From positions 1-58,892 of the forward strand of contig JAJTHN010000014.1 of NCBI GenBank assembly GCA_021297895.1: a stretch of DNA of 58,892 nucleotides, given 5' to 3'. The DNA is from Phycisphaeraceae bacterium. GTDB taxonomy: Bacteria; Planctomycetota; Phycisphaerae; Phycisphaerales; UBA1924. A program made the position numbers and the translations under genes. Within the stretch, counting starts at the first letter, position 1; each line of letters opens with the position of its first letter. Under the pieces are notes generated by a model. It saw nothing but the letters and a program-made list of their open reading frames with translations, was not told the origin of the DNA and did not search any database. Below, one piece after another: positions 31,693 to 44,290 of the stretch.

Positions 31693-32979
31693 TCAGCCGC
31701 CGGACTGCTGCAGCTTCTCGATGATGGCCACCAGAGGAAGGAACATGGCGATCACGATGCCGCCGACGACGATGCCAAGAAAGAGCACCAGCAGCGGCTC
31801 GATCAGCTTGACCAGCGAGTTCACCGCAACGTCGACCTCTTCGTCGTAGTTGTCGGCGATCTTCATGAGCATGGAGTCCAGGTCACCGGTCTCCTCGCCG
31901 ACGTCGATCATGTTCACGACGATCGAGTCGACGACCTTCGCCTCGCGCAGCGGCGCGGCGAACGTCTCGCCCTCGCGGATCGAGTCGTGCACCTTTCCCA
32001 GCGCCCGCTCGTACACGTAGTTGCCCGACGTTTCCTTCGTGATCGTGATCGCGTCGAGAATCGGCACACCCGCGTGGATCAGCGTCCCAAGCGTCCGCGT
32101 GAACTTCGCGACCGTGGTCTTGGAAATCAGGCTGCCGATGACCGGTGTCCAGAGCACCAGCGTGTCCGTGATCGCCCGCCCGAACGCGGCCATTCTCGCG
32201 ACCTTCCACACGACGAAGAACACGCCGGGCAGCAGCGCGATGAAGATCCAGCCCGGCCAGTTCTGTCCCGGCTGCAGGCCCGCCAGCCAGTTGGAGCTGT
32301 CGACCAGGAACTGCGTCAGCGCGGGCATCTCAACGCCGAACTCCTCGAAGATCTTGGAGAACTGCGGGATGATCTTGACCATGATGAACATCACGATGCC
32401 GATCGCAACGATCATCACGACCACGGGATAGAGCATCGCGCCGACGATCTTCCTCTTCAGCCGCTGGGCCTTCTCCAGGAAGTCCGCAAGACGCTGGAGG
32501 ATGACGTCCAGCACGCCGCCGACCTCGCCCGCGGCCACCATCTTGACGTACAGGCGATCGAACGCCCGCGGGTGCTTGGCCATCGACTCCGAAAGGCTCA
32601 TGCCGCCCTCGACATCCTCGCACACAGTCTGGAGAACGCTCTTGAGCTTTCCGGGCTTCTGCTGCTCTTCGAGGATCTGCAGCGATCGCAGCAGAGGCAG
32701 ACCGGCGTCCTGCAGCGTCGAGAGCTGACGCGTGAAGTTCGTCAGCTGCTTGCCGCTGACGCCGCCGATGGTGATGGCGATCTCGCCCTTCTTCTTTTTC
32801 TTCTTGCCCGGGGCCTCGGCCTTGCCCTTCTTGTCGGATTCCTTCTGCTCACGGACCTGCATCGGGTGGAAACCCTGCGACTTGATCTTCTCGATCGCTT
32901 CCTTACTCGAGGTCGCGTCCACGGTGCCCTTCTGGGGCTTGCCCGCCGCATTCAACGCTTCGTATGCAAAGGTCGCCAT
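31693..32979 (-). CDS. gspF: GspF/PilC-type inner-membrane platform protein
   Basis: 428 residues with a good GGAG site. N-terminus MATFAYEALNAAGKPQKGTV is typical, followed by a basic Lys-rich patch (GKKKKKKG, about residues 57-65) and two T2SSF domains: first with LTNFTRQLSTLQDAGLPLLR and EDVEGGMSLSESMAKHP, second with KFTRTLGTLIHAGVPILDAI and VHDSIREGETFAAPLREAKV. Three membrane helices are visible (LYPVVVMIVAIGIVMFIMVK, PGWIFIALLPGVFFVVWKVA, and the C-terminal LLVLFLGIVVGGIVIAMFLP). It anchors the assembly ATPase to the pseudopilus base. Begins 57 bases after gspE. Confidence 0.93.
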   Translation of the reverse strand: MATFAYEALNAAGKPQKGTVDATSSKEAIEKIKSQGFHPMQVREQKESDKKGKAEAPGKKKKKKGEIAITIGGVSGKQLTNFTRQLSTLQDAGLPLLRSLQILEEQQKPGKLKSVLQTVCEDVEGGMSLSESMAKHPRAFDRLYVKMVAAGEVGGVLDVILQRLADFLEKAQRLKRKIVGAMLYPVVVMIVAIGIVMFIMVKIIPQFSKIFEEFGVEMPALTQFLVDSSNWLAGLQPGQNWPGWIFIALLPGVFFVVWKVARMAAFGRAITDTLVLWTPVIGSLISKTTVAKFTRTLGTLIHAGVPILDAITITKETSGNYVYERALGKVHDSIREGETFAAPLREAKVVDSIVVNMIDVGEETGDLDSMLMKIADNYDEEVDVAVNSLVKLIEPLLVLFLGIVVGGIVIAMFLPLVAIIEKLQQSGG

Positions 32980-33036
32980 CGCAGTGTCTCCGATTCTCTG
33001 GTCCGGTCCGTCGAATTCGTTCTCGCCCTCTGGCGA

Positions 33037-34773
33037 TTACTCGTCGTCGCCCATGGTCTCGCGCACGATCTCATCGATCGTCGTCTGGCCCTCGTACAGC
33101 GCCAGCAGGCCGCACTCACGCAGCGTTCGCATGCCGTTGCGGCGGGCGATCTGGCGGAGGATGTTCGTGCTGGCCTTCTTCATGATCTGGTCGCGCAGCT
33201 CGTCGTTGATGGCCATGATCTCGAAGATCGCCATTCGCCCCTTGTACCCGGAGCCGAAGCAGCCATCGCAGCCCTTGCCGCGGAAGAACTTCCGTCCGGC
33301 GACGGACTCGGGCGTGAGGCTCAACTCCATGAGCTGCTCCTCGCTGGGCACGAACTCCTGCCGACACTTGGGGCAGATGGTGCGCGTCAGCCGCTGGGCC
33401 AGCACGCCCTCCATTGTCGCCGTGAGAAGGAACGGCTCCACGCCGAGGTCCACCAGACGGATGACGCTCGAGGGCGCGTCGTTGGTGTGCAGCGTCGTCA
33501 GCACAAGGTGGCCGGTCAGCGATGCCTGGATGGCGATCTCCGCCGTCTCAAGGTCGCGAATCTCGCCGACAAGAATGACGTCCGGGTCCTGACGCAGGAA
33601 GCTGCGCAGCGCCTTGGCGAAGGTCAGCTCGACCTCCGGGTTCACCTGCACCTGGCAGAGCCCATCGATGTCGTACTCGACCGGGTCCTCGCACGTGAGG
33701 ATCTTGGTTTCCAGGTCGTTGAGCTCCTGGAGCGCCGCGTACAGCGTCGTCGTCTTGCCGGAGCCCGTCGGGCCCGTCACGATCACGATGCCGTTGGGCC
33801 GATTGATCAGCTTGCGGAACGATGACATGTCGTCGTCGCGAAGCCCCACGCGATCGAGCGCGAGCTTGACGTTGCTCCGATCGAGCACACGCATCACGAC
33901 GCTCTCGCCCCACATCGTCGGCAGCACGCTCACGCGAAGGTCCACCGGCGCCCCGCCAACCGTCAGCTCGATACGCCCGTCCTGCGGCAGCCGACGCTCG
34001 GCGATGTTCATCTTCGCCATGACCTTCACGCGGCTGGTGATGGCCGTGCCAAGATGCTTCGGCGGCGGCACCATCTCGTACAGCACGCCGTCGATGCGGT
34101 ACCGCATCTTGAACTCCTCCTCGAACGGCTCGAAGTGGATGTCCGATGCGCGGTCCTTGATCGCCTGCAGCAACACGAGGTTCAGCAGCTTGATGACCTT
34201 GTTGTCCTCCGCGGCCTCCATCACCGCATCAAGGTCGATCGAGTCGTTGCTCTTGCCCTGAAGGCTCTTGAACTTGTCGTCCGCCGCGAGCTCGCTGACG
34301 ACCTCCGTCACCGACTCCTGCTTGGAGTAGTACTTCTTGATCAGCGCATCGACCTGCGCCTCATCGGCGACAACGGCCTCGACATTGAACCCCATCAGCA
34401 ACTTCAGGTCGTCCACCGCCCGGAAGTTGTTCAGGCTCTTCATCGCGATCTTGAGTTTCCGCCCCGCGGCCTTGTACTCGATCGGCACGACCTGATACGA
34501 CTGCACCGTCTCGGCCGGAAGCGACTCGACCACCTCCGCCGGCAGCTCGCCCATGTTCAGGTCAACAAACCCCAAACCCGCCTGCGCCGCCAACGCCTCA
34601 TCCACATCGCGCTTGTTGCAGTACCCAAGCTCAACCAGGAGTTCACCCAGCAGCTTCCGACGGGTCTTCTGGACCTCCAACGCCTCGTGCACTCGCTCAC
34701 GAGACACCACCCCCATCTTCGTGAGGATCCGCCCGAGCTTGCGTCCCTTGCTGTCGTTCAGGTCCAGTGGCAC
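33037..34773 (-). CDS. gspE: GspE/PilB-type assembly ATPase (first)
   Basis: 578 residues from a GTG start with GGAG seven bases before it. N-terminal MshEN-type domain (GRKLGRILTKMGVVSRERVH, LLGELLVELGYCNKRDVDEA) of the kind that can bind c-di-GMP, then the ATPase domain with Walker A GPTGSGKTTTLYAALQELND, Asp box EDPVEYDIDGLCQVQVN, Walker B LVGEIRDLETAEIAIQASLT and His box TTLHTNDAPSSVIRLVDLGV. The C-terminal zinc-binding four-Cys region is present (CPKC, then GCDGCFGSGYKGR). It powers pseudopilin addition. It directly precedes gspF, so it is the likely ATPase of this apparatus. Confidence 0.93.
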   Translation of the reverse strand: MPLDLNDSKGRKLGRILTKMGVVSRERVHEALEVQKTRRKLLGELLVELGYCNKRDVDEALAAQAGLGFVDLNMGELPAEVVESLPAETVQSYQVVPIEYKAAGRKLKIAMKSLNNFRAVDDLKLLMGFNVEAVVADEAQVDALIKKYYSKQESVTEVVSELAADDKFKSLQGKSNDSIDLDAVMEAAEDNKVIKLLNLVLLQAIKDRASDIHFEPFEEEFKMRYRIDGVLYEMVPPPKHLGTAITSRVKVMAKMNIAERRLPQDGRIELTVGGAPVDLRVSVLPTMWGESVVMRVLDRSNVKLALDRVGLRDDDMSSFRKLINRPNGIVIVTGPTGSGKTTTLYAALQELNDLETKILTCEDPVEYDIDGLCQVQVNPEVELTFAKALRSFLRQDPDVILVGEIRDLETAEIAIQASLTGHLVLTTLHTNDAPSSVIRLVDLGVEPFLLTATMEGVLAQRLTRTICPKCRQEFVPSEEQLMELSLTPESVAGRKFFRGKGCDGCFGSGYKGRMAIFEIMAINDELRDQIMKKASTNILRQIARRNGMRTLRECGLLALYEGQTTIDEIVRETMGDDE

Positions 34774-35037
34774 TCGAAAACTCCAGAGCCCGCGTACGCT
34801 CGGCCGCAGTTCAGGCCGGCCAAACCAAAAACGTCGAGCCCTGAGTCTACACGATCGGCGGGCCCGATCGGATCCTCAGCACTCGCGCAACCACCGCAAA
34901 ATTTCAATGCGTCAACCAACAAACGGTGATAACTGTTTGCTTTCCGATAGGATGCCACCAGCGGGAAACCTATCGAAACACGAACGTGCGGCCCAGCCAA
35001 AACACCGCCGAGGTCGTCGTCGACCCCGGTCCATGCA

Positions 35038-36159
35038 TCATGCCTTCGGCGCATCTTCGGATTCGTCAAGCTCGGTCCGGCCCACCGTTCGGCCAAGGCG
35101 ATGGACCTTGTCGGTGAGCTCGCCGGGGTTCTTTGAACGGTCGATCATCTCCTCCGCGCTGATCTTGTCGCTCATGTAGTGCTGCCAGAGGTGGTCATCA
35201 AGCAGCTGCATACCGAACTTCTTCCCGGTCTGGATGAAGGAGTCGATTCGGTAGGTCTTTCCCTCACGAATGAGGTTCGCGATTGCGGGCGTCACGACGA
35301 GGAACTCGTACGCCGCGATCAGGCCGCTCGAGTCCTTCCGCGGCAGGAGCGCCTGACTGAGCACCGCGAGAAGGGCCGTGGACAACTGCACGCGGATCTG
35401 GTTCTGCTGGCTGACCGGGAACGCGTCAACCACGCGGTCAATGGTCTTGGCCGCGCCGGTCGTGTGGAGCGTACCGAACACAAGGTGACCGGTCTCGGCG
35501 GCGCGAATCGCGGCCTCGATCGTCTCCAGGTCGCGCATTTCACCGACGAGGATCAGGTCAGGGTCCGACCGAAGCACGCGCCGCAGCGCCTCGGCGAAAC
35601 TGTGAACATCGGTGCCGATCTCACGCTGGTTCACCACCGACTTCTTGTGGTAGTGGTAGTACTCGATCGGGTCTTCCATCGTCACGATGTGCCGATCCAG
35701 CGTCATGTTCACGAAGTCGATCATCGTCGCCAGCGTCGTGGTCTTGCCCGAACCCGTCGGCCCCGTGACCAGGAACAAACCACGCGGGCGGCGGACCAGT
35801 TCGCGGCAGATCTCCGGCAGACCAATCTGCTCGAACGACAGCAGCTTGCTCGGGATCAGACGCAGGACCATCGCCAGATCGCCGCGCTGCTTGAAGATCG
35901 ACACGCGGAAGCGAGCCTTGTCGCCGTATGAGAAGCCGAAGTCGCAGCCGCCCTTCTCGGAAATCTCCTGCTGCTTCTGCTCGGGCGTGATGGACTTCAT
36001 CAGCGCGACCATGTCATCGCTGGCCAACACCTTGGTCTTGAGATTCTGCAGGTGACCATGCAGACGAACCGTCGGCGGACGGCCGACAGTCAGGTGAAGG
36101 TCGCTCGCGCCGGTCGTGACCACCGTATCCAGAAGGCGGTCCATTTGCATCGTTGACAT
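35038..36159 (-). CDS. pilT: PilT-type retraction ATPase
   Basis: 373 residues, the usual length. N-terminal PAS-like domain with TTGASDLHLTVGRPPTVRLH, Walker A GPTGSGKTTTLATMIDFVNM, Asp box VTMEDPIEYYHYHKKSVVNQ, Walker B LVGEMRDLETIEAAIRAAET and His box FGTLHTTGAAKTIDRVVDAF. The C-terminal ANLIREGKTYRIDSFIQT corresponds to the AIRNLIRE signature that marks PilT and separates it from PilB/GspE. PilT disassembles pili, so its presence argues for a dynamic type IV pilus rather than a pure secretion system. It lies between the two assembly ATPases, 99 bases after the upstream one and 264 before the next. Confidence 0.93.
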   Translation of the reverse strand: MSTMQMDRLLDTVVTTGASDLHLTVGRPPTVRLHGHLQNLKTKVLASDDMVALMKSITPEQKQQEISEKGGCDFGFSYGDKARFRVSIFKQRGDLAMVLRLIPSKLLSFEQIGLPEICRELVRRPRGLFLVTGPTGSGKTTTLATMIDFVNMTLDRHIVTMEDPIEYYHYHKKSVVNQREIGTDVHSFAEALRRVLRSDPDLILVGEMRDLETIEAAIRAAETGHLVFGTLHTTGAAKTIDRVVDAFPVSQQNQIRVQLSTALLAVLSQALLPRKDSSGLIAAYEFLVVTPAIANLIREGKTYRIDSFIQTGKKFGMQLLDDHLWQHYMSDKISAEEMIDRSKNPGELTDKVHRLGRTVGRTELDESEDAPKA

Positions 36160-36258
36160 GGGTGGCTCGCTTGTCGAAAGGGACGGGGAAACAGGTCAAA
36201 GAAACACTCAGCCGTCGACTCGTTTACGCGGCCCGCTCGGCGAGCTCGCACATCACGC

Positions 36259-38016
36259 TCAAAGCGTCGACATCTCCACCTGGGTCGAGCGAGCGACCTC
36301 ATCCGGAGTCGTGACACCCTTGAGAATCTTGATCTTGCCATCGTCGACCAGCGCCCTCATGCCGCCGGCCAGTGCAGCCTGGCGAATCTTGGCGATCGGC
36401 TCCTGACGGAACGCCAACTCGCGGATCTCGCTGGTCATCTGCATCATCTCGAAAATGGCCTTCCGACCGCGATACCCCGCGCCGTTGCAGTTATCGCAAC
36501 CCACGGCCTTGAGCACCTTGCCCCGGGCTTCATCGGGCGTGATGTTCGTCAGCGCGAGATACTTCGGATCCGGCTCGGGGTCCACAGCCTTGCACTTGGG
36601 ACACAGCACGCGGATGAGCCGCTGGGCCATGATCGCCTGAATGGCGCTGGCCACCAGGAACGGCTTGACACCCATGTCGATCAGACGCGTGATCGCCGAC
36701 GGAGCGTCGTTGGTGTGCAGCGTCGAGAACACAAGGTGACCGGTCAACGCGGCCTGAATCGCGATTTCCGCCACCTCTCGGTCACGAATCTCACCGACCA
36801 GGATGATGTTCGGCGCCTGACGCAGCATCGTCTTGAGGATGATGCTGAAGGTCAGGCCGATCTTCTCGCGGGTCTGGCACTGGTTGATGCCGCGGAAGTT
36901 GTACTCGATCGGGTCCTCGGCGGTGATGATCTTCTTGTCGGGCCGGTTGAGCACATCCAGCGCCGAGTACAGGGTCGTCGTCTTGCCCGAGCCCGTCGGC
37001 CCGGTGACCAGGAAGATGCCGTTGGGCCGGCGGATGATCTTGTTGAACACCGCAAGGTTGTCGTCCTCGAAGCCCAGGTTCGATAGACCGATCTTGACCG
37101 AATCTGGCCGCAGAATACGCAGCACGATGCTCTCGCCGTGATACACCGGGCAAGCCGAGACACGGAAGTCGATGAACACCTGCTCGTTGTTGGGCCCGAC
37201 GGGCTGCGCCGGGTCCGGGATCATGGAGATCTTGATGCGTCCGTCCTGAGGCAGTCGCTTCTCGGCGATGTTCATGCCCGCCATCAGCTTCACGCGCGAC
37301 AGGATCGAGTTCTGCATCCGCTTGGGCAGGTTGTCCCGCTCCATGCACACGCCGTCGATTCGGTATCGCAGCCGCAGCCGATCGCCGAAGGGCTCAAAGT
37401 GAATATCGCTCGCCCGCATCCGCACCGCTTCGCTCAGGATTCGCTGAACCAGTCGAACGATCGGCGCCTCATCGGCCGCGATGTCGATCGACTTGTCCAT
37501 CGACCGGTCGATCGACGCGGTCATCAGGGGCTTGCCGTCCTTGTCCTGCTGCGGCGCCTGGTCCGCGCTCGGAGACTTGCCCGACTTGAGCGACGTGTCG
37601 ATCCACTTCTTAATCGCCGCGCGGCTGGCCAGCCGGGGCTCGATCTGGGCCGATAGACGGAACTGCAGAAGGTCCAGCAGCTCAAGGTCCAGCGGATCGT
37701 GGATGATCACCTGCATCTTGCCCATACTCTTGGTCAGGGGCAGCACGAGGTGCTTGCGGATCAGATCCTCGGGGATAAGCGTCGGGTCGATCTTGTCCGC
37801 GATGTCGCTGTTGGCCAAGTCCACATATTCAACCGCGAACTGGTTGGCCAGGGCTTTGGTCACGGCCTCATCGCTGGCAAAGCCCAGTTCGATGATCGTG
37901 TCGCCCAATCGTTTGTTGGAGCTCTTGGCCTTCGCGACCGCTTCGTTGACCTGGTCGGGCGTGAGAACGCCCCAACCCACGAGAATATCGCCCAGTTTCT
38001 TGCGAGAACGTGCCAT
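36259..38016 (-). CDS. GspE/PilB-type assembly ATPase (second)
   Basis: 585 residues. Same architecture as the gene at 33037: MshEN-like N-terminus (MARSRKKLGDILVGWGVLTP, RLGDTIIELGFASDEAVTKA), Walker A GPTGSGKTTTLYSALDVLNR, Walker B LVGEIRDREVAEIAIQAALT, His box STLHTNDAPSAITRLIDMGV, and zinc-binding CPKC plus GCDNCNGAGYRGRKAIFEMM. A Lys/Ser/Asp-rich linker (about residues 145-180) separates the halves. The two copies are clearly different proteins, so they probably serve different conditions or two machines; with PilT next door this one may be the pilus extension motor. It heads the leftward cluster and is divergent from coaB. Confidence 0.9.
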   Translation of the reverse strand: MARSRKKLGDILVGWGVLTPDQVNEAVAKAKSSNKRLGDTIIELGFASDEAVTKALANQFAVEYVDLANSDIADKIDPTLIPEDLIRKHLVLPLTKSMGKMQVIIHDPLDLELLDLLQFRLSAQIEPRLASRAAIKKWIDTSLKSGKSPSADQAPQQDKDGKPLMTASIDRSMDKSIDIAADEAPIVRLVQRILSEAVRMRASDIHFEPFGDRLRLRYRIDGVCMERDNLPKRMQNSILSRVKLMAGMNIAEKRLPQDGRIKISMIPDPAQPVGPNNEQVFIDFRVSACPVYHGESIVLRILRPDSVKIGLSNLGFEDDNLAVFNKIIRRPNGIFLVTGPTGSGKTTTLYSALDVLNRPDKKIITAEDPIEYNFRGINQCQTREKIGLTFSIILKTMLRQAPNIILVGEIRDREVAEIAIQAALTGHLVFSTLHTNDAPSAITRLIDMGVKPFLVASAIQAIMAQRLIRVLCPKCKAVDPEPDPKYLALTNITPDEARGKVLKAVGCDNCNGAGYRGRKAIFEMMQMTSEIRELAFRQEPIAKIRQAALAGGMRALVDDGKIKILKGVTTPDEVARSTQVEMSTL

Positions 38017-38157: not shown

Positions 38158-38865
38158 ATGAACGCCTCCGCCAGCCCACGTCGCGCATCTTCCCGGGCCG
38201 GCTTCGAGCACGACCTGCTCATCACGGCGGGGCCGACTCACGAGCCCATCGATGCCGTTCGATACGTCGCAAACCGATCCTCCGGTAGACTCGGCATCGC
38301 GCTGGCCGATGCCGCCGTCGACCGCGGGCTATCGGTTCTGCTCCTGCTCGGTCCGACACACCTGACACCCGCCGATCCGCGTGTTCAGACTCTTCGGTTC
38401 CAGTCCGTCGCCGACCTTCAACGACTGCTCAAGCGGCACTTCCGCAAGTCCCGCACGCTCGTCATGGCCGCCGCCGTCGCGGACTACACGCCGATAACGC
38501 CCCCCGCCGCGCGTTCCGGCAAACTGCGCCGATCGGCCTCGGGCCTGGTCCTGCGGCTCCGCCCCACACCCGATCTGCTCGCCGGTGTCGCCGCGGCCCG
38601 TCGTCCGGGGCAGACCGTCGTCGGCTTTGCCCTCGAGCCCGCACCACGCCTGCTGCGCTCGGCACGCGAAAAACTCCGCCGAAAGTCCCTCGACGCCATC
38701 GTCGCCAACGAACTTCGCACGATGGACTCGCCGACAATCTCCGCAACGCTGATCCTCGCCGACGGCACGACGCAGGCCACGCCCAAATCCATGCCGAAGG
38801 CCGACTTCGTCCGCTGGCTCCTCGACCGCCTGCCCGACGCGCGGGCAACTCGCCCACTACCTTAA
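38158..38865 (+). CDS. coaB: Phosphopantothenate--cysteine ligase (stand-alone CoaB domain)
   Basis: 235 residues. Joins 4'-phosphopantothenate to cysteine using CTP (or ATP) in coenzyme A synthesis. The nucleotide-binding start DLLITAGPTHEPIDAVRYVA followed by NRSSGRLGIALADAAVDRGL is the CoaB signature; later motifs include VMAAAVADYTP, GFALEP and LDAIVANEL. In most bacteria CoaB is fused behind the CoaC decarboxylase; here the decarboxylase half is absent, so it must be elsewhere. The product is about 20 residues longer at the N-terminus than the core. It is followed after four bases by the next gene, with which it is probably co-transcribed. Confidence 0.82.
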   Translation: MNASASPRRASSRAGFEHDLLITAGPTHEPIDAVRYVANRSSGRLGIALADAAVDRGLSVLLLLGPTHLTPADPRVQTLRFQSVADLQRLLKRHFRKSRTLVMAAAVADYTPITPPAARSGKLRRSASGLVLRLRPTPDLLAGVAAARRPGQTVVGFALEPAPRLLRSAREKLRRKSLDAIVANELRTMDSPTISATLILADGTTQATPKSMPKADFVRWLLDRLPDARATRPLP

Positions 38866-38869
38866 TGCC

Positions 38870-40894
38870 ATGCCCCAGCGCCCCGACCGCCCGCGTCGAC
38901 CTTCAGATTCCCCTTCAAGGCCGACGCTCGGCGGAAAGGTCCGCCCCATCAACGAACCTCACGGCTACCCCCCTCGCGGCCCCGCCCCAAGGCCGTTGCC
39001 CCCGTCTGCCGTTCCCGGACCAAAGCCCCTCAAGCCCACCCGCGCGCCGGTTCCGACACGCCCATCAACCCAGTCCCCACCCCCATCGCACCCGAGATCC
39101 GCGGCACCACGCCCGCCCGCGCCGGCCCGCGGATCGATCGGCCCGTCGTCTGTCCCGAGCCTCACACCCACACCCTCGGGCACGTGGACCGGTGCTCCGG
39201 GCGAGGCCCTGAGCCACTCCAGTCCGCGCCCGTTGCCCATGGGCATCCGCATCATCTACGAAGATGCGGACGTGATCGTCGTCGAGAAGCCCGTCGGTCT
39301 GATCACCGCGGGCCTGGGCGTGAACGTCGCCGAGGATTCCCTTCTGAGCGTCGTGAAGGACCACGTCCGCCGACAGAAGCCGCGCGGCCCGGGCCGCCAG
39401 CGCGTTCGCGATGAAGCCGACGCCACCGGCAACGCATTCCTGCTCCGCCAGCGCGGCCGCCCATATGTCGGTGTGATCCACCGCCTTGATCGCGAAGCAT
39501 CCGGCCTCGTGGTCTTCAGCAAGTCAAACACCGCCTTTGAAAGCCTCAAGGAGCAACTCAAGCTCCGCAAGGTTCACCGCCTCTACCTCGCCCTTGTCGA
39601 GGGCCAGGTCGGCCCAGAGGGCAGCGCGGGCACGATCCAGTCGCTCCTGCGCGAACTGCCATCAGGCCGCGTCGCGAGTATCGCCAGCGACACGTTCCGC
39701 GGCCCGCCACCAAGGACGCAACGTCCTTATCGCGGTCGCCCCGCCGACACCGACGACGAGGCACGCCCCGCCGTCACACACTTCCGCGTCGCACGCGTGG
39801 GCGCAGGTCGAACGCTCCTGCAGGTACGCCTGGAAACGGGCCGAAAGCACCAGATCCGCGTGCACCTTTCCGAGCGCGGTCACCCCATCGTGGGCGACGA
39901 GAAGTACGGCGCGACCATCAATCCCATTGGCCGGCTCGGGCTTCACGCCGTCGAACTTGGCTTCACGCACCCGGTCACCGGAAAGGACGTTCGCTTCCGC
40001 AGCGAACCGCCCGTGTCATTCGGTGCGTCGTCGCTCTCTCGCACCGCGGCCCCGACCGCCGCACCCAACAGCGAGGACGATGCCTCGGCTCGCACCAGCG
40101 CAACCGAGCAGGCGAACCAGCGCGCCATCGCCGAAACCGCTTGGGAGAACGTCGCGGGTTGGTATGACCAGCTCGTCGAGCAGGATCGCAACGACCACTA
40201 CGACAACGTGATCCTTCCCGGCGTCGTCCGTCTGCTCGCGCCCAAGCCGGGACAGACGATTCTCGACGTCGCCTGTGGCCAGGGCATCGTCGCTCGTCGA
40301 CTGATGGCCGAGGGCGCTCGCGTCGTCGGGGTGGATGCGTCGGCATCGCTCATCGAGAGCGCCCAAAGCCGCACGCCTCCGAAGGCCCCGGCGCGGTTCC
40401 TCGTCGCCGATGCGCGCAAGCTCACGGCCATCGACGCGGAGCCCGCATCGTTCGACAGCGCTTGCTGTGTCATGGGTCTGACCAACATCGACCCGCTCGC
40501 CGCGGTGCTCAAGGGCATCGCCTCGCTGCTCCGCGCGGGCGGCAACGTGGTGCTTGTCATTCAGCACCCGGCATTCCGCATCACGGGCCAGACTTCCTGG
40601 GGCTTTGATCCGAAGCTCGGCGTGCAGTACCGCCGGGTCGAGAGCTACCTCACGCCCAGCGCCAAGCCCATCAAGATGCACCCCGGCGCCAAGCCCGATG
40701 TGATCACGACCACCTTCCACCGTCCGCTCGGCGCATACGTCACGGCGCTCGCGTCTTCGGGTTTGCTCGTGGACGCGATCGAAGAGTGGTCCGGCCAGCG
40801 GGTCAGCCAGCCCGGCCCGCGTGCCGAGGCCGAGAATCGCGCCCGGCGAGAGTTCCCGCTGTTCATGGCGATCCGCGCCGTCAAAAATGCGTGA
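38870..40894 (+). CDS. RluA-family pseudouridine synthase fused to a methyltransferase
   Basis: 674 residues with three parts. Residues 1-125 are Pro/Arg/Ser-rich and probably disordered. Residues about 125-385 are an RluA-type pseudouridine synthase: DADVIVVEKPVGLITA, catalytic HRLDREASGL (Asp-207), HRLYLALVEG, and LETGRKHQIRVHLSERGHPI. Residues about 415-674 are a class I SAM methyltransferase: motif I TILDVACGQG (464-472), VVGVDASASLIESA, FDSACCVMGLTNIDPL and a C-terminal FHRPLGAYVTALASSG. The first half converts uridine to pseudouridine in rRNA or tRNA; the substrate of the second is unknown. No S4 domain is seen. Frame and codon use are continuous across the join, so it is a true fusion, not two genes. 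Confidence 0.88.
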   Translation: MPQRPDRPRRPSDSPSRPTLGGKVRPINEPHGYPPRGPAPRPLPPSAVPGPKPLKPTRAPVPTRPSTQSPPPSHPRSAAPRPPAPARGSIGPSSVPSLTPTPSGTWTGAPGEALSHSSPRPLPMGIRIIYEDADVIVVEKPVGLITAGLGVNVAEDSLLSVVKDHVRRQKPRGPGRQRVRDEADATGNAFLLRQRGRPYVGVIHRLDREASGLVVFSKSNTAFESLKEQLKLRKVHRLYLALVEGQVGPEGSAGTIQSLLRELPSGRVASIASDTFRGPPPRTQRPYRGRPADTDDEARPAVTHFRVARVGAGRTLLQVRLETGRKHQIRVHLSERGHPIVGDEKYGATINPIGRLGLHAVELGFTHPVTGKDVRFRSEPPVSFGASSLSRTAAPTAAPNSEDDASARTSATEQANQRAIAETAWENVAGWYDQLVEQDRNDHYDNVILPGVVRLLAPKPGQTILDVACGQGIVARRLMAEGARVVGVDASASLIESAQSRTPPKAPARFLVADARKLTAIDAEPASFDSACCVMGLTNIDPLAAVLKGIASLLRAGGNVVLVIQHPAFRITGQTSWGFDPKLGVQYRRVESYLTPSAKPIKMHPGAKPDVITTTFHRPLGAYVTALASSGLLVDAIEEWSGQRVSQPGPRAEAENRARREFPLFMAIRAVKNA

Positions 40895-40947: not shown

Positions 40948-43197
40948 TCACGGGCAGCCGATGAAGAACGCGCTGAAGAACAGCGTGAAGTCGCCGTTAT
41001 CGACCGTGCCATCGGCACCCGGATCGCCGTCGGTGTTGGCGACATCCGCCAGCAGCCGCGCCGGGTCGCTCTCATCGGCAAAGAACGCCGAGAAGAACAG
41101 GCTGAAGTCGCCGTTGTCGACCGTGCCATCGGGCCCCGCATCGCCGTCGGTGTTGGCGATGTCCGCCGGCGAGCAAGCCAGCAGAACACTGCCCGCATCC
41201 ATCTCAACCGGCGCGGACTTGCCCCACTTGTACCACTGCGCAAAGACGATGTCGCCCAGCGAGTACGGCGCCGCACCCAGCGGCGGGAACGGCCCACCGA
41301 TCGTCGGCAGCGTCCACGTGTCCACGCCCGGCTGCGGCACGATCGTCGACACATCCGTCGCGTGAGACCGCAGGAACTCGATGTACTCCCGCGTCGTCGT
41401 CTGGCCAAACACCGACACCTCCGCACGCACCGCGCCCGCGGGGATCGCAAAATCCGTGTCGTCCCAGAACTGACCATCCGCGTACGTCGCACCAACCGGC
41501 GCCGCGCCGATCGCCTCAAAGCCCGCGTTCGTAAAGCCCCGCGGCGGGATCCGATTGTCCAGATACGTCTTGTTGTTCAGGTCCAGGTGGAACGTCGGGC
41601 CCATGGGCAGCCCCGTCTCCAGGGCCATCGCCGCGTCCAGCCCGTGCTTGGCCTCGTAAACCTTGGTCGACGCCTCATCCAGGACCGCCGTTGCGCTGTC
41701 ATACGCACCGAGTTCCTGGACCACGCCGCCCGCTCCATTGAGGAACCGCACGTTGATCCACATCCGTCGCCCCTCGGCGAACCCACCGGGCAACTTGTGA
41801 CCCGTCTGGTTGATCACACGCACCCGCAGATTCGGCCCCACGCGCAACAGTTCCATGTCACTGGCCATCCGGCGCATGTGCAGGTTCCGCTGCACCGACG
41901 CGGTCACTTCCTCCGGACGCTCCATCAGCGTCTCGCCCGATGGATACAGGTCATTGACCGCATTGAGAACCCACGAGTTCGTCCCCGCGAAGTTGTGGAT
42001 CGGAACATTCCGGCTCTGCGGCCCCAGCGCCGGGTCGCACCCGGTGCCGATGCTCTTGGGCTGGTGGCACGACTGGCACGAGTCGTACGCCACCGGAACG
42101 TACCGGAAGCCATCCTCGTTGCGCTGCCGGAAGATCAACTTCTCGCCCGTCGTTTCGTCGATTGTCACACCGTCCATCTGGTACCGGCCGATCAGGGTCG
42201 GATTCGCCAGAGGCTCGGGTGGCGCCCCGGGCGTCGGATCTTCATTCGGCACCGGGATCGTGCTCGGGTTCGGAATCGTCAGCGTCACCGGTCCCTGTGC
42301 AAAGGCCGACTTCAGCCACTCGCTGTACGTCCGGTCCATCGGGTACATGTCGTACTTGTTGCCCGTCGGGTGCGGCTGGCCGTACGGCGTCAGCGCATAC
42401 GAACCGTCAGGCTGCTTCATGAACAACGCGTTGGACACATCGTGGCAACTGGCGCACATCGCCGACTGGCGATGAAAGTCCGACTCCAGCCACTGATGGT
42501 AGAAGAAGACTCCCAGGTCCACCGGTCCGCGCCGGCGATCCTCCGGATCGAACACCGCACCATTGGCCGCGATCGCCGAGCCCGGCCGCTCCCCCACCGC
42601 CGGGAAGTCCGGCGGCCGATCCGCGCCAAGCGCCGCCAGAATCTCCGCGTCAACCGCCGGCGCACCGGGGTTGTTCGCCGGGTCCACCTGTCGGTGGCAC
42701 GAGATGCAGTTCACACCCTGACGGTCCGGCGACTCGATCAACTCACCGTTCCGCCCCGACCCGTCCGGCTGCACGCCGCGATCCTGAACCCACCCCGCCG
42801 GCGCGTGACACCGCATGCACGAGTCGCTGCTCGCGACCGCCACCTTCTCCGTGACCTGCATCGCCGCGAGGAAAATGGGATCGCGGAACGACTGCGACAT
42901 CATCGAGTACGACCACCGGTTGTACGGCGTCGAGTAACTGAACGGCTGCTCGGTCACGCTGATGTCCGTCGCGTGGCACCCGGCGCAGTTCTCCACCGAG
43001 GTCATCTCGTTAAACCCCAGATCGCCCGGCAGGTTCGGCGGCCTTGGGGTCTGCGGCTGCGTTCCGTACAGATAGAAGTCGCTCAACTGCGTCGGCAGCG
43101 GCAGCCCCGTCCCCGCCAACGCGAGCGACCCGGCCGCCACACCGATCCCACCCAACCACAGCACCGGCGCCCACAGCCCACGCTTGCGAATCGACAT
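40948..43197 (-). CDS. Pentahaem cytochrome c with dockerin-like tail
   Basis: 749 residues. The start has GGAG and an N-terminal anchor or signal (APVLWLGGIGVAAGSLALAG). Five CxxCH haem sites: CAGCH (71), CMRCH (127), CISCH (164), CASCH (248), CQSCH (374). The layout resembles the multihaem cytochrome c family of the c554/nitrite-reductase type, but I cannot name the substrate. The middle (about 420-670) is strand-rich. The last 70 residues hold two near-identical units, DIANTDGDAGPDGTVDNGDF and DVANTDGDPGADGTVDNGDF, each followed by (S/T)LFFSAFF, which resemble calcium-binding dockerin-like repeats used as C-terminal tails in planctomycete surface proteins. It is exported and likely an electron-transfer protein. 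Confidence 0.82.
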   Translation of the reverse strand: MSIRKRGLWAPVLWLGGIGVAAGSLALAGTGLPLPTQLSDFYLYGTQPQTPRPPNLPGDLGFNEMTSVENCAGCHATDISVTEQPFSYSTPYNRWSYSMMSQSFRDPIFLAAMQVTEKVAVASSDSCMRCHAPAGWVQDRGVQPDGSGRNGELIESPDRQGVNCISCHRQVDPANNPGAPAVDAEILAALGADRPPDFPAVGERPGSAIAANGAVFDPEDRRRGPVDLGVFFYHQWLESDFHRQSAMCASCHDVSNALFMKQPDGSYALTPYGQPHPTGNKYDMYPMDRTYSEWLKSAFAQGPVTLTIPNPSTIPVPNEDPTPGAPPEPLANPTLIGRYQMDGVTIDETTGEKLIFRQRNEDGFRYVPVAYDSCQSCHQPKSIGTGCDPALGPQSRNVPIHNFAGTNSWVLNAVNDLYPSGETLMERPEEVTASVQRNLHMRRMASDMELLRVGPNLRVRVINQTGHKLPGGFAEGRRMWINVRFLNGAGGVVQELGAYDSATAVLDEASTKVYEAKHGLDAAMALETGLPMGPTFHLDLNNKTYLDNRIPPRGFTNAGFEAIGAAPVGATYADGQFWDDTDFAIPAGAVRAEVSVFGQTTTREYIEFLRSHATDVSTIVPQPGVDTWTLPTIGGPFPPLGAAPYSLGDIVFAQWYKWGKSAPVEMDAGSVLLACSPADIANTDGDAGPDGTVDNGDFSLFFSAFFADESDPARLLADVANTDGDPGADGTVDNGDFTLFFSAFFIGCP

Positions 43198-43375: not shown

Positions 43376-44290
43376 CTATTTCCCCATATCCGGCGAGACA
43401 AATTCGAACGTTTCCGAGTCAGGCAAAACCCCACTCTCCACACCCGCCGCCAGCAAAGCCCGCACGGCGGACGCCCCGGACTCCCCCGCATCAACGGTCA
43501 AGTCGTTCACATACATCGACACATACCGGTCCAGTTCCGAACGCTCCTTCAGCGGCGAGAACGTCGACGCGTAGTCCAGCGCCTCATCGCGATGGGCCAG
43601 TGCATGGTCGATGCTCGCCCGAAGCAGGGCAACAACCGTCCGCATGCTTCCCGGGCCGAACCTCGCATCCAAATCGCGCCGCACCGCGTTCGCGCCCAGG
43701 GGCAGCGGCATGCTCCGCTGCTGGGTCCACCATGCCCCCAGATCCGCGACCAGCTTCAGTCCCGCGCGAGCGAACATCAACTGCCCCTCGTGGATCACAA
43801 CACCCGCGTCGACCTCGCCGCTGACAACCCTCTCGATGATCCGATCAAACGGCGTCGGAACGGGCGTGAACCGCCCCGCCCCCACCAGCGCACTGAGCGT
43901 CAGAAACGCGCTGGTATTCAGCCCCGGCACCGCGACGCGCAAGCCCTCGAGATCGCTCGGCGACGCCAGCGACCGCGAAGGCCTGGCCACCAGTTTCGGC
44001 CCGTAGCCCTTGCCGAAACTCGAGCCGCAACTCGTCAGGGCGTAGCGCGTGCGGATGTGCGGGTACGCCGAGAAACTCACCGCGGTGATGTCCAGGTCGC
44101 CGACATCGATCGCACGCTTGTTCAGATCCTGAATATCCGCCGGCAGCGCACGAAAGCGCCACCCGCGCGTGTTGATGCAGGCGGGAGCGATCACCTCGTG
44201 CGGTGCGACCGCGCTGACCTTTCCCGTGATCGGCCACCACATGAACACATCGTCAGCATCGGCGGAATGCGCAAGCGTGAGCGTCGGCAT
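43376..44290 (-). CDS. mqnD: 1,4-dihydroxy-6-naphthoate synthase (MqnD)
   Basis: 304 residues, starting MPTLTLAHSADADDVFMWWP, the classic MqnD N-terminus, with the substrate pocket motifs NKRAIDVGDLDITAVSFSAY, CGSSFGKGYGPKLVARP, VPGLNTSAFLTLSAL and VDAGVVIHEGQLMFA. MqnD converts cyclic dehypoxanthinyl futalosine to dihydroxynaphthoate in the futalosine route to menaquinone. The other mqn genes are not in the window. Its GAGGAA ribosome-binding site overlaps the end of purF, ten bases upstream, so it is translated from the purF transcript. Confidence 0.92.
   Translation of the reverse strand: MPTLTLAHSADADDVFMWWPITGKVSAVAPHEVIAPACINTRGWRFRALPADIQDLNKRAIDVGDLDITAVSFSAYPHIRTRYALTSCGSSFGKGYGPKLVARPSRSLASPSDLEGLRVAVPGLNTSAFLTLSALVGAGRFTPVPTPFDRIIERVVSGEVDAGVVIHEGQLMFARAGLKLVADLGAWWTQQRSMPLPLGANAVRRDLDARFGPGSMRTVVALLRASIDHALAHRDEALDYASTFSPLKERSELDRYVSMYVNDLTVDAGESGASAVRALLAAGVESGVLPDSETFEFVSPDMGK

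Follow-up and report, generated by a model that had tools for sequence, protein, structure and literature searches.

A fusion of an RluA-type pseudouridine synthase with a class I methyltransferase, a candidate RNA-modifying enzyme of Planctomycetota

Introduction

Pseudouridine synthases of the RluA family (PF00849; TIGR00005) include Escherichia coli RluD, which makes Psi1915, and the methylation of pseudouridine is known from RlmH, a SPOUT enzyme that generates m3Psi1915 and whose fold is unrelated to that of the methyltransferase described here. Two modification domains in one chain are found in RlmKL, which contains two rRNA methyltransferase domains and no pseudouridine synthase domain. 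RlmB and RlmKL have roles in ribosome assembly that are independent of modification, according to the available part of PMC11194073. For a synthase that is needed without catalysis, the nearest precedent found is mt-LAF3 of Trypanosoma brucei, a synthase orthologue whose catalytic function is not required (available part of PMC11469412).

The protein analysed here resembles RlmKL in having two modification domains per chain, here a pseudouridine synthase and a methyltransferase. It differs from mt-LAF3, which is mitochondrial and for which the available part of the description mentions no methyltransferase. Its parts are of known kinds, but their join, the spread of this join and the altered state of the synthase half in some members did not appear in our literature search, which returned no title on an RluA–methyltransferase fusion; this search was conducted mostly at title level, with most subscription journals outside its coverage.

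Results and discussion

Both enzymes in a single reading frame

The window, i.e. the whole stretch of 58,892 nucleotides analysed from a Phycisphaeraceae bacterium, carries on its forward strand a single open frame of 674 codons, running from ATG to stop. Its features and the gene preceding it are as follows:

38158..38865, + strand: CoaB-like gene (DFP, PF04127) upstream of the fusion, with 4 bases between its end and the ATG (Pfam)
38870..40894, + strand: whole fusion ORF, 674 aa (frame analysis; 64 more one-frame fusions)
38870..39229, + strand: Pro/Arg-rich N-terminal tail with predicted disorder (residues 1-120) and an uncertain start codon (pLDDT <50 at 1-43 and 45-120)
39242..40027, + strand: RluA-type pseudouridine synthase domain, residues 125-386 (Pfam PF00849 at 134-334; fused-half profile at 125-386)
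39479..39490, + strand: HRLD motif, residues 204-207, catalytic Asp207 (sequence; role of the Asp from the available part of PMC3919597)
40028..40117, + strand: linker, residues 387-416, mostly predicted disordered (pLDDT <50 at 390-423)
40118..40891, + strand: class I SAM-dependent methyltransferase domain, residues 417-674 (Pfam Methyltransf_25/11; profile at 421-673; model pLDDT 91.5)
40262..40285, + strand: SAM-binding motif LDVACGQG, residues 465-472 (7 of 8 positions invariant in a 9-row alignment; pattern in 65/65 fusions)

A first-pass annotation, made from the letters of the window, had placed both enzymes in one polypeptide with complete motifs in each half. The join is real: the 64 other records with a one-frame fusion exclude chance and assembly error, and three of them are located in one-contig genomes (G114, G265 and G358); the window's own genome comprises 84 contigs (3.48 Mb, 97% complete). 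The completeness of the motifs was borne out for the window's species. PseudoU_synth_2 (PF00849) matches residues 134-334 (E 4.7e-28, 98.8 bits vs a cut-off of 26.8), and HRLD with Asp207, Tyr239, and motif III (residues 320-330) with Arg325 and Arg330 are all present, as is the SAM motif LDVACGQG, which is followed by the acidic Asp489. Since the Asp, Tyr and motif Arg residues are kept in this species, its synthase half probably isomerises uridine too. While the fusion of the window shares the domain, HRLD, Tyr and motif III with the RluA family, it differs from that family in several respects: it scores below the cut-off of the curated model TIGR00005 (152.3 vs 192.7 bits), forms a clade of its own, has a C-terminal methyltransferase and carries an altered HRLD in 21 of 65 fusions. 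No S4 domain was seen in the fusion protein.

In the C-terminal half, Methyltransf_25 matches residues 464-558 (E 1.6e-15, 58 bits vs a cut-off of 27), and other general methyltransferase models exceed their cut-offs at the same place (Methyltransf_25/11, 464-561). That this part is of Rossmann type, as had been proposed, is supported by its model, which has a class I fold (pLDDT 91.5) and matches solved SAM methyltransferases with Z scores of up to 26.0. The whole-protein model leaves the mutual placement of the two domains unpredicted (pTM 0.42). Given the Pro/Arg-rich composition and almost complete predicted disorder of residues 1-120, translation may begin later, with the in-frame ATG of codon 124 as one candidate. 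Taken over all 65 fusions together, the tails are basic: in the 45 residues before the synthase domain (2692 residues in total), K+R amount to 638 vs 215 for D+E. The linker is slightly acidic.

Distribution in Planctomycetota

How widespread the fusion is had been left as a point to check; it proved to be common to dozens of related species. The union of all sets comprises 65 one-frame fusions, all in Planctomycetota, and combines the overlapping counts of 8/21, 9/199 and 57/201 genomes with one further locus, L009. The 8 of 21 derive from a search with the whole protein. At phylum level, 28 of 199 genomes matched the methyltransferase profile at 1e-25 (9 fused, 15 standalone or split, 4 distant), and at order level 66 of 201 did so at 1e-35 (57 fused, 8 standalone or split, 1 distant). 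L009, from a Phycisphaerales MAG, carries the fusion at 51% identity and is no duplicate, since its identity to other fusions does not exceed 65%; for the closest fusion pairs, identity in the methyltransferase half is 95-96%. Within the window's family, the methyltransferase profile matched in 55 of 68 genomes, and since all 55 are fused, the fusion is the rule in this family, though it can be absent: the 13 genomes with no match indicate that the protein is dispensable.

A contig pattern scan reaching beyond Planctomycetota yielded 43 loci, at which both halves matched in L009 alone. The other loci come from 42 genomes, 11 of which matched the methyltransferase profile, and no synthase was found at the 5 of 10 returned loci that were checked. 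Both tests are weak, since the 42 genomes are no random sample and the flanks of the 5 loci span about 1.5 kb. One of these 5 loci, L260, from a Phycisphaerales genome, is another close standalone methyltransferase and stands outside all counts and trees. No plasmid record covered 80% of the query at a single place. In Chloroflexi, a methyltransferase relative (L261:1462-3114, 135 bits) is fused to a C-terminal portion, esterase-like by eye, and not to a synthase.

Standalone, two-gene and fused forms

In 19 of the 20 close non-fused relatives, the flank fetched around the methyltransferase gene contains no such synthase. Because contig ends limit the flanks, this negative is weak for G348 (some 130 bases of upstream sequence) and for G116 (a contig of 4 kb). 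The exception is G017, which encodes a 442-aa synthase and a 323-aa methyltransferase as two genes that follow the order of the fusion, with a 4-base overlap. Two findings had been named together in the first-pass annotation as evidence against its proposal, namely relatives that encode the halves far apart and a methyltransferase half that matches a known small-molecule family. The former applies to the 19 relatives in so far as their methyltransferase is encoded apart from a synthase; the latter was not found among the curated families listed, as described below. At their predicted starts, 18 of these 20 methyltransferases likewise have tails with K+R above D+E, the exceptions being G192 (K+R 9 vs D+E 11) and G098 (no tail).

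In the synthase tree, which holds 17 of the 65 fused halves, these 17 and the G017 gene form one clade (support 97/86) that stands apart from E. coli RluA, RluC, RluD and TruC. E. coli RluD falls outside the fusions, in a group (99/90) that it shares with 20 genes of the order; one of the 20 is the RluD-like gene of the window's genome (L002), which also encodes separate RluA-like (L005) and third-type (L003) synthases. The placement of one unfused gene (G013, L162, long branch) next to the fused clade is weakly supported (83/41). For the methyltransferases, a quick tree of 85 rows (65 fused and 20 other, with six distant rows left out: G049 twice, G138, G155, G212 and G372) needs two changes to explain the fusion, but a single fusion clade has the better likelihood and is not rejected (p-AU 0.92); an earlier 37-row tree needs one change, with weak support (36/81). 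The simple reading is that a two-gene unit would have fused once, an order that stays conditional because G017 could also be a later split.

Altered active sites in the synthase half

Alignment of the 65 fused synthase domains showed HRLD to be complete in 44 and altered in 21. Across all 65, the catalytic Asp is kept in 59, the Tyr in 56, the Arg two positions before the Asp in 46, and Q-x-R of motif III in 59. The Asp is replaced in six, by Lys in G005 and by Glu in G006, G268, G324, G341 and G238. Among the 21 altered halves, 19 lack that Arg, 8 the Tyr and 6 Q-x-R, while G259 keeps HRLD and has Phe in place of the Tyr. HRLD was present in 50 of 50 unfused paralogues examined, which were taken from the matches listed with those below 40 bits left out, both of which may favour an intact motif. 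According to the available part of PMC3919597, TruA, TruB, RluA and RsuA become inactive when the Asp is mutated, and the Arg has been implicated in flipping out the base; a title cited there reports that human PUS1 is still partially active with many substitutions of this kind. Some of the altered halves may still work, since 15 of the 21 keep the Asp and G262, whose sole loss is the His of HRLD, keeps all five residues counted. The methyltransferase half presents a different picture: the SAM-motif pattern, which is slightly wide, was found in all 65 fused and all 26 other methyltransferase rows.

For three pairs of altered synthase halves with dS <1, dN/dS was 0.037, 0.078 and 0.060, compared with 0.033, 0.057 and 0.083 for the methyltransferase halves of the same pairs and 0.02-0.10 for the synthase halves of intact pairs; in the other altered pairs, dS was well above 1 or undefined. 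Judged by the three usable pairs, the altered synthase domains are under purifying selection and not drifting. Repeated independent loss of HRLD was considered and set aside: the quick tree counts six changes, but these do not show repeated loss, because a tree with the 21 altered halves together is likelier and a single loss is not rejected (p-AU 0.73).

Altered synthase residues next to a kept SAM motif suggest that the methyltransferase is the constant part and that the synthase fold probably docks RNA. On the strength of these sequence patterns, we incline towards an RNA-modifying enzyme in which the methyltransferase would be the constant activity and the RluA-type fold an RNA-docking module. 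We propose the following hypothetical course, in which (i) the groove of the synthase domain would bind structured RNA, most likely rRNA; (ii) the tethered methyltransferase would modify a nucleotide close by; (iii) in the window's species, the additional isomerisation of uridine by the synthase half would probably result in two modifications of one RNA by one polypeptide; and (iv) in the most altered lineages, methylation alone would remain. More tentatively, an RNA methyltransferase may have taken over the synthase as a guide domain, which would have become a conserved non-catalytic RNA-binding module in part of the family, while other members, including the window's, would do both, at an RNA site that is not so modified in E. 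coli. Such a natural fusion would tie an orphan methyltransferase family to RNA and give a direct way to seek a new modified site in planctomycete RNA. The series from standalone through two-gene and fused forms to fusions with an altered synthase allows one to ask what role a synthase fold with an incomplete active site plays.

A protein that binds pre-rRNA as a ribosome-assembly factor, its chemistry being secondary, would be in line with the modification-independent functions of RlmB and RlmKL and with the dispensable catalysis of mt-LAF3. We regard this as very unlikely: the SAM motif in 65 of 65 fusions speaks for selection of methylation itself, and the 13 same-family genomes with no match also argue against an assembly role.

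RlmH and methyl-pseudouridine

The first-pass annotation had suggested that the fusion makes a methylated pseudouridine, or modifies two nearby sites, and had looked to the absence of RlmH as a link. RlmH (PF02590) indeed gave no match in any of 21 genomes of the order (G000-G020), while 8 of 14 control genomes did give one. However, it is missing whether or not a genome carries the fusion, so its absence tells nothing about the latter, and replacement of RlmH was dropped as uninformative. In these 21 genomes, m3Psi1915 is either missing or made otherwise; the RluD-type gene of the window's genome, as noted, is separate from the fusion, a second point against the RlmH link.

A sequential enzyme, in which a pseudouridine formed by the synthase half is then methylated on that base by the methyltransferase half through a Rossmann-type route, would agree with the single chain, with the complete motif sets of the window protein, with HRLD in 44 of 65 fusions and with the lack of RlmH. 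Yet RlmH is lacking even where the fusion is, and all 21 fusions with an altered HRLD, six of them with no Asp, retain the SAM motif, as do the 20 close non-fused relatives. Two of the fusions with a replaced Asp (G005 and G006) show no other member of that synthase clade among the matches listed. We therefore consider such an enzyme quite unlikely. Because the methyltransferase persists with an altered synthase or with none, self-made methyl-pseudouridine is unlikely as the general product, although it is possible in the window's species; modification of two nearby sites is possible as well.

Possible substrates of the methyltransferase

The methyltransferase half matches general Pfam domains only, and SPOUT_MTase (PF02590) is not among the 11 Pfam families matched by the fusion protein. 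Among the curated NCBI matches listed (25 of 38), all are below cut-off; CpaM and UbiE-type models rank at the top and BioC lower. With the UbiE/MenG model TIGR01934, the fusion scores 50.9 bits vs a cut-off of 158.35, while another gene of the same genome reaches 223.2 bits; with the BioC model TIGR02072, it scores 30.8 vs 184.95 bits. The best sequence match among solved structures is 3bkw (E 4e-25). Uncharacterised SAM methyltransferases of the 3bkw/3g5l/3e8s type share the fold of this half (Z 22.8-26.0), but are only 19-24% identical to it, and their entry titles name no substrate. The structure neighbours include the small-molecule enzymes ToxA, TleD and UbiG, and the RNA enzymes Bud23, METTL6 and CmoM appear in the same list at Z 20-21. 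With both kinds mixed among the matches, the fold does not decide the substrate.

A small-molecule substrate, with the fusion as a by-product of operon structure, could draw on the sub-threshold CpaM, UbiE-type and BioC matches, on ToxA, TleD and UbiG, and on an MqnD-like gene near the fusion in G000, L009 and G005. This gene, however, was found at only three of the first nine fusion loci, and a separate MenG/UbiE exceeds the cut-off in 20 of 21 genomes, including the window's. A quinone role is thus disfavoured despite the MqnD-like neighbour, because the true MenG/UbiE is encoded elsewhere in the genome. Nor does a chance join explain why the synthase domain of the fusion, even in its altered form, continues under purifying selection. 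On these grounds, a small-molecule enzyme appears unlikely, and the fusion, the basic tails and the neighbours would point to RNA as the substrate.

Gene neighbourhood

The CoaB-like gene and the fusion form a probable operon, and a CoaB-like gene precedes the fusion in L107 too. Diverging from the fusion is a pilus-type gene block (31693-38016, - strand), present at 11 of the 12 loci from this family for which wide flanks were inspected, whose genes we take to encode a type IV pilus-type ATPase and a PilC-like protein. Neither the CoaB-like gene nor this block hints at a substrate, and no common theme was evident by eye among the neighbours of the standalone methyltransferases. In three genomes from two genera of another family than the window's, a U32+DUF3656 gene lies downstream of the fusion, directly in G115 and within about 2 kb in G079 and G130:

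L109:9210-11906, L111:9717-12338 and L112:3876-6479: U32+DUF3656 genes of the three genomes, RlhA-like architecture

RlhA, a U32-motif protein, is needed for ho5C2501 in 23S rRNA and requires an E/C/C set (available part of PMC6599085). The E/C/C residues are readable with RlhA spacing in all three sequences. By analogy, these neighbours may be a hint, and no more, at the peptidyl-transferase region of 23S rRNA.

Downstream of the fusion in the window are, on the - strand, a 749-aa protein (40948-43197) with several CxxCH motifs and an MqnD-like menaquinone-biosynthesis protein (43376-44290; PF02621, E 2.7e-58); in L009, an MqnD-like gene and a similar CxxCH protein also follow the fusion. The 749-aa protein ends in two C-terminal repeats, DGDxGxDGTVDNGDFxLFFSAFF, which by eye resemble a dockerin-type or sorting repeat.
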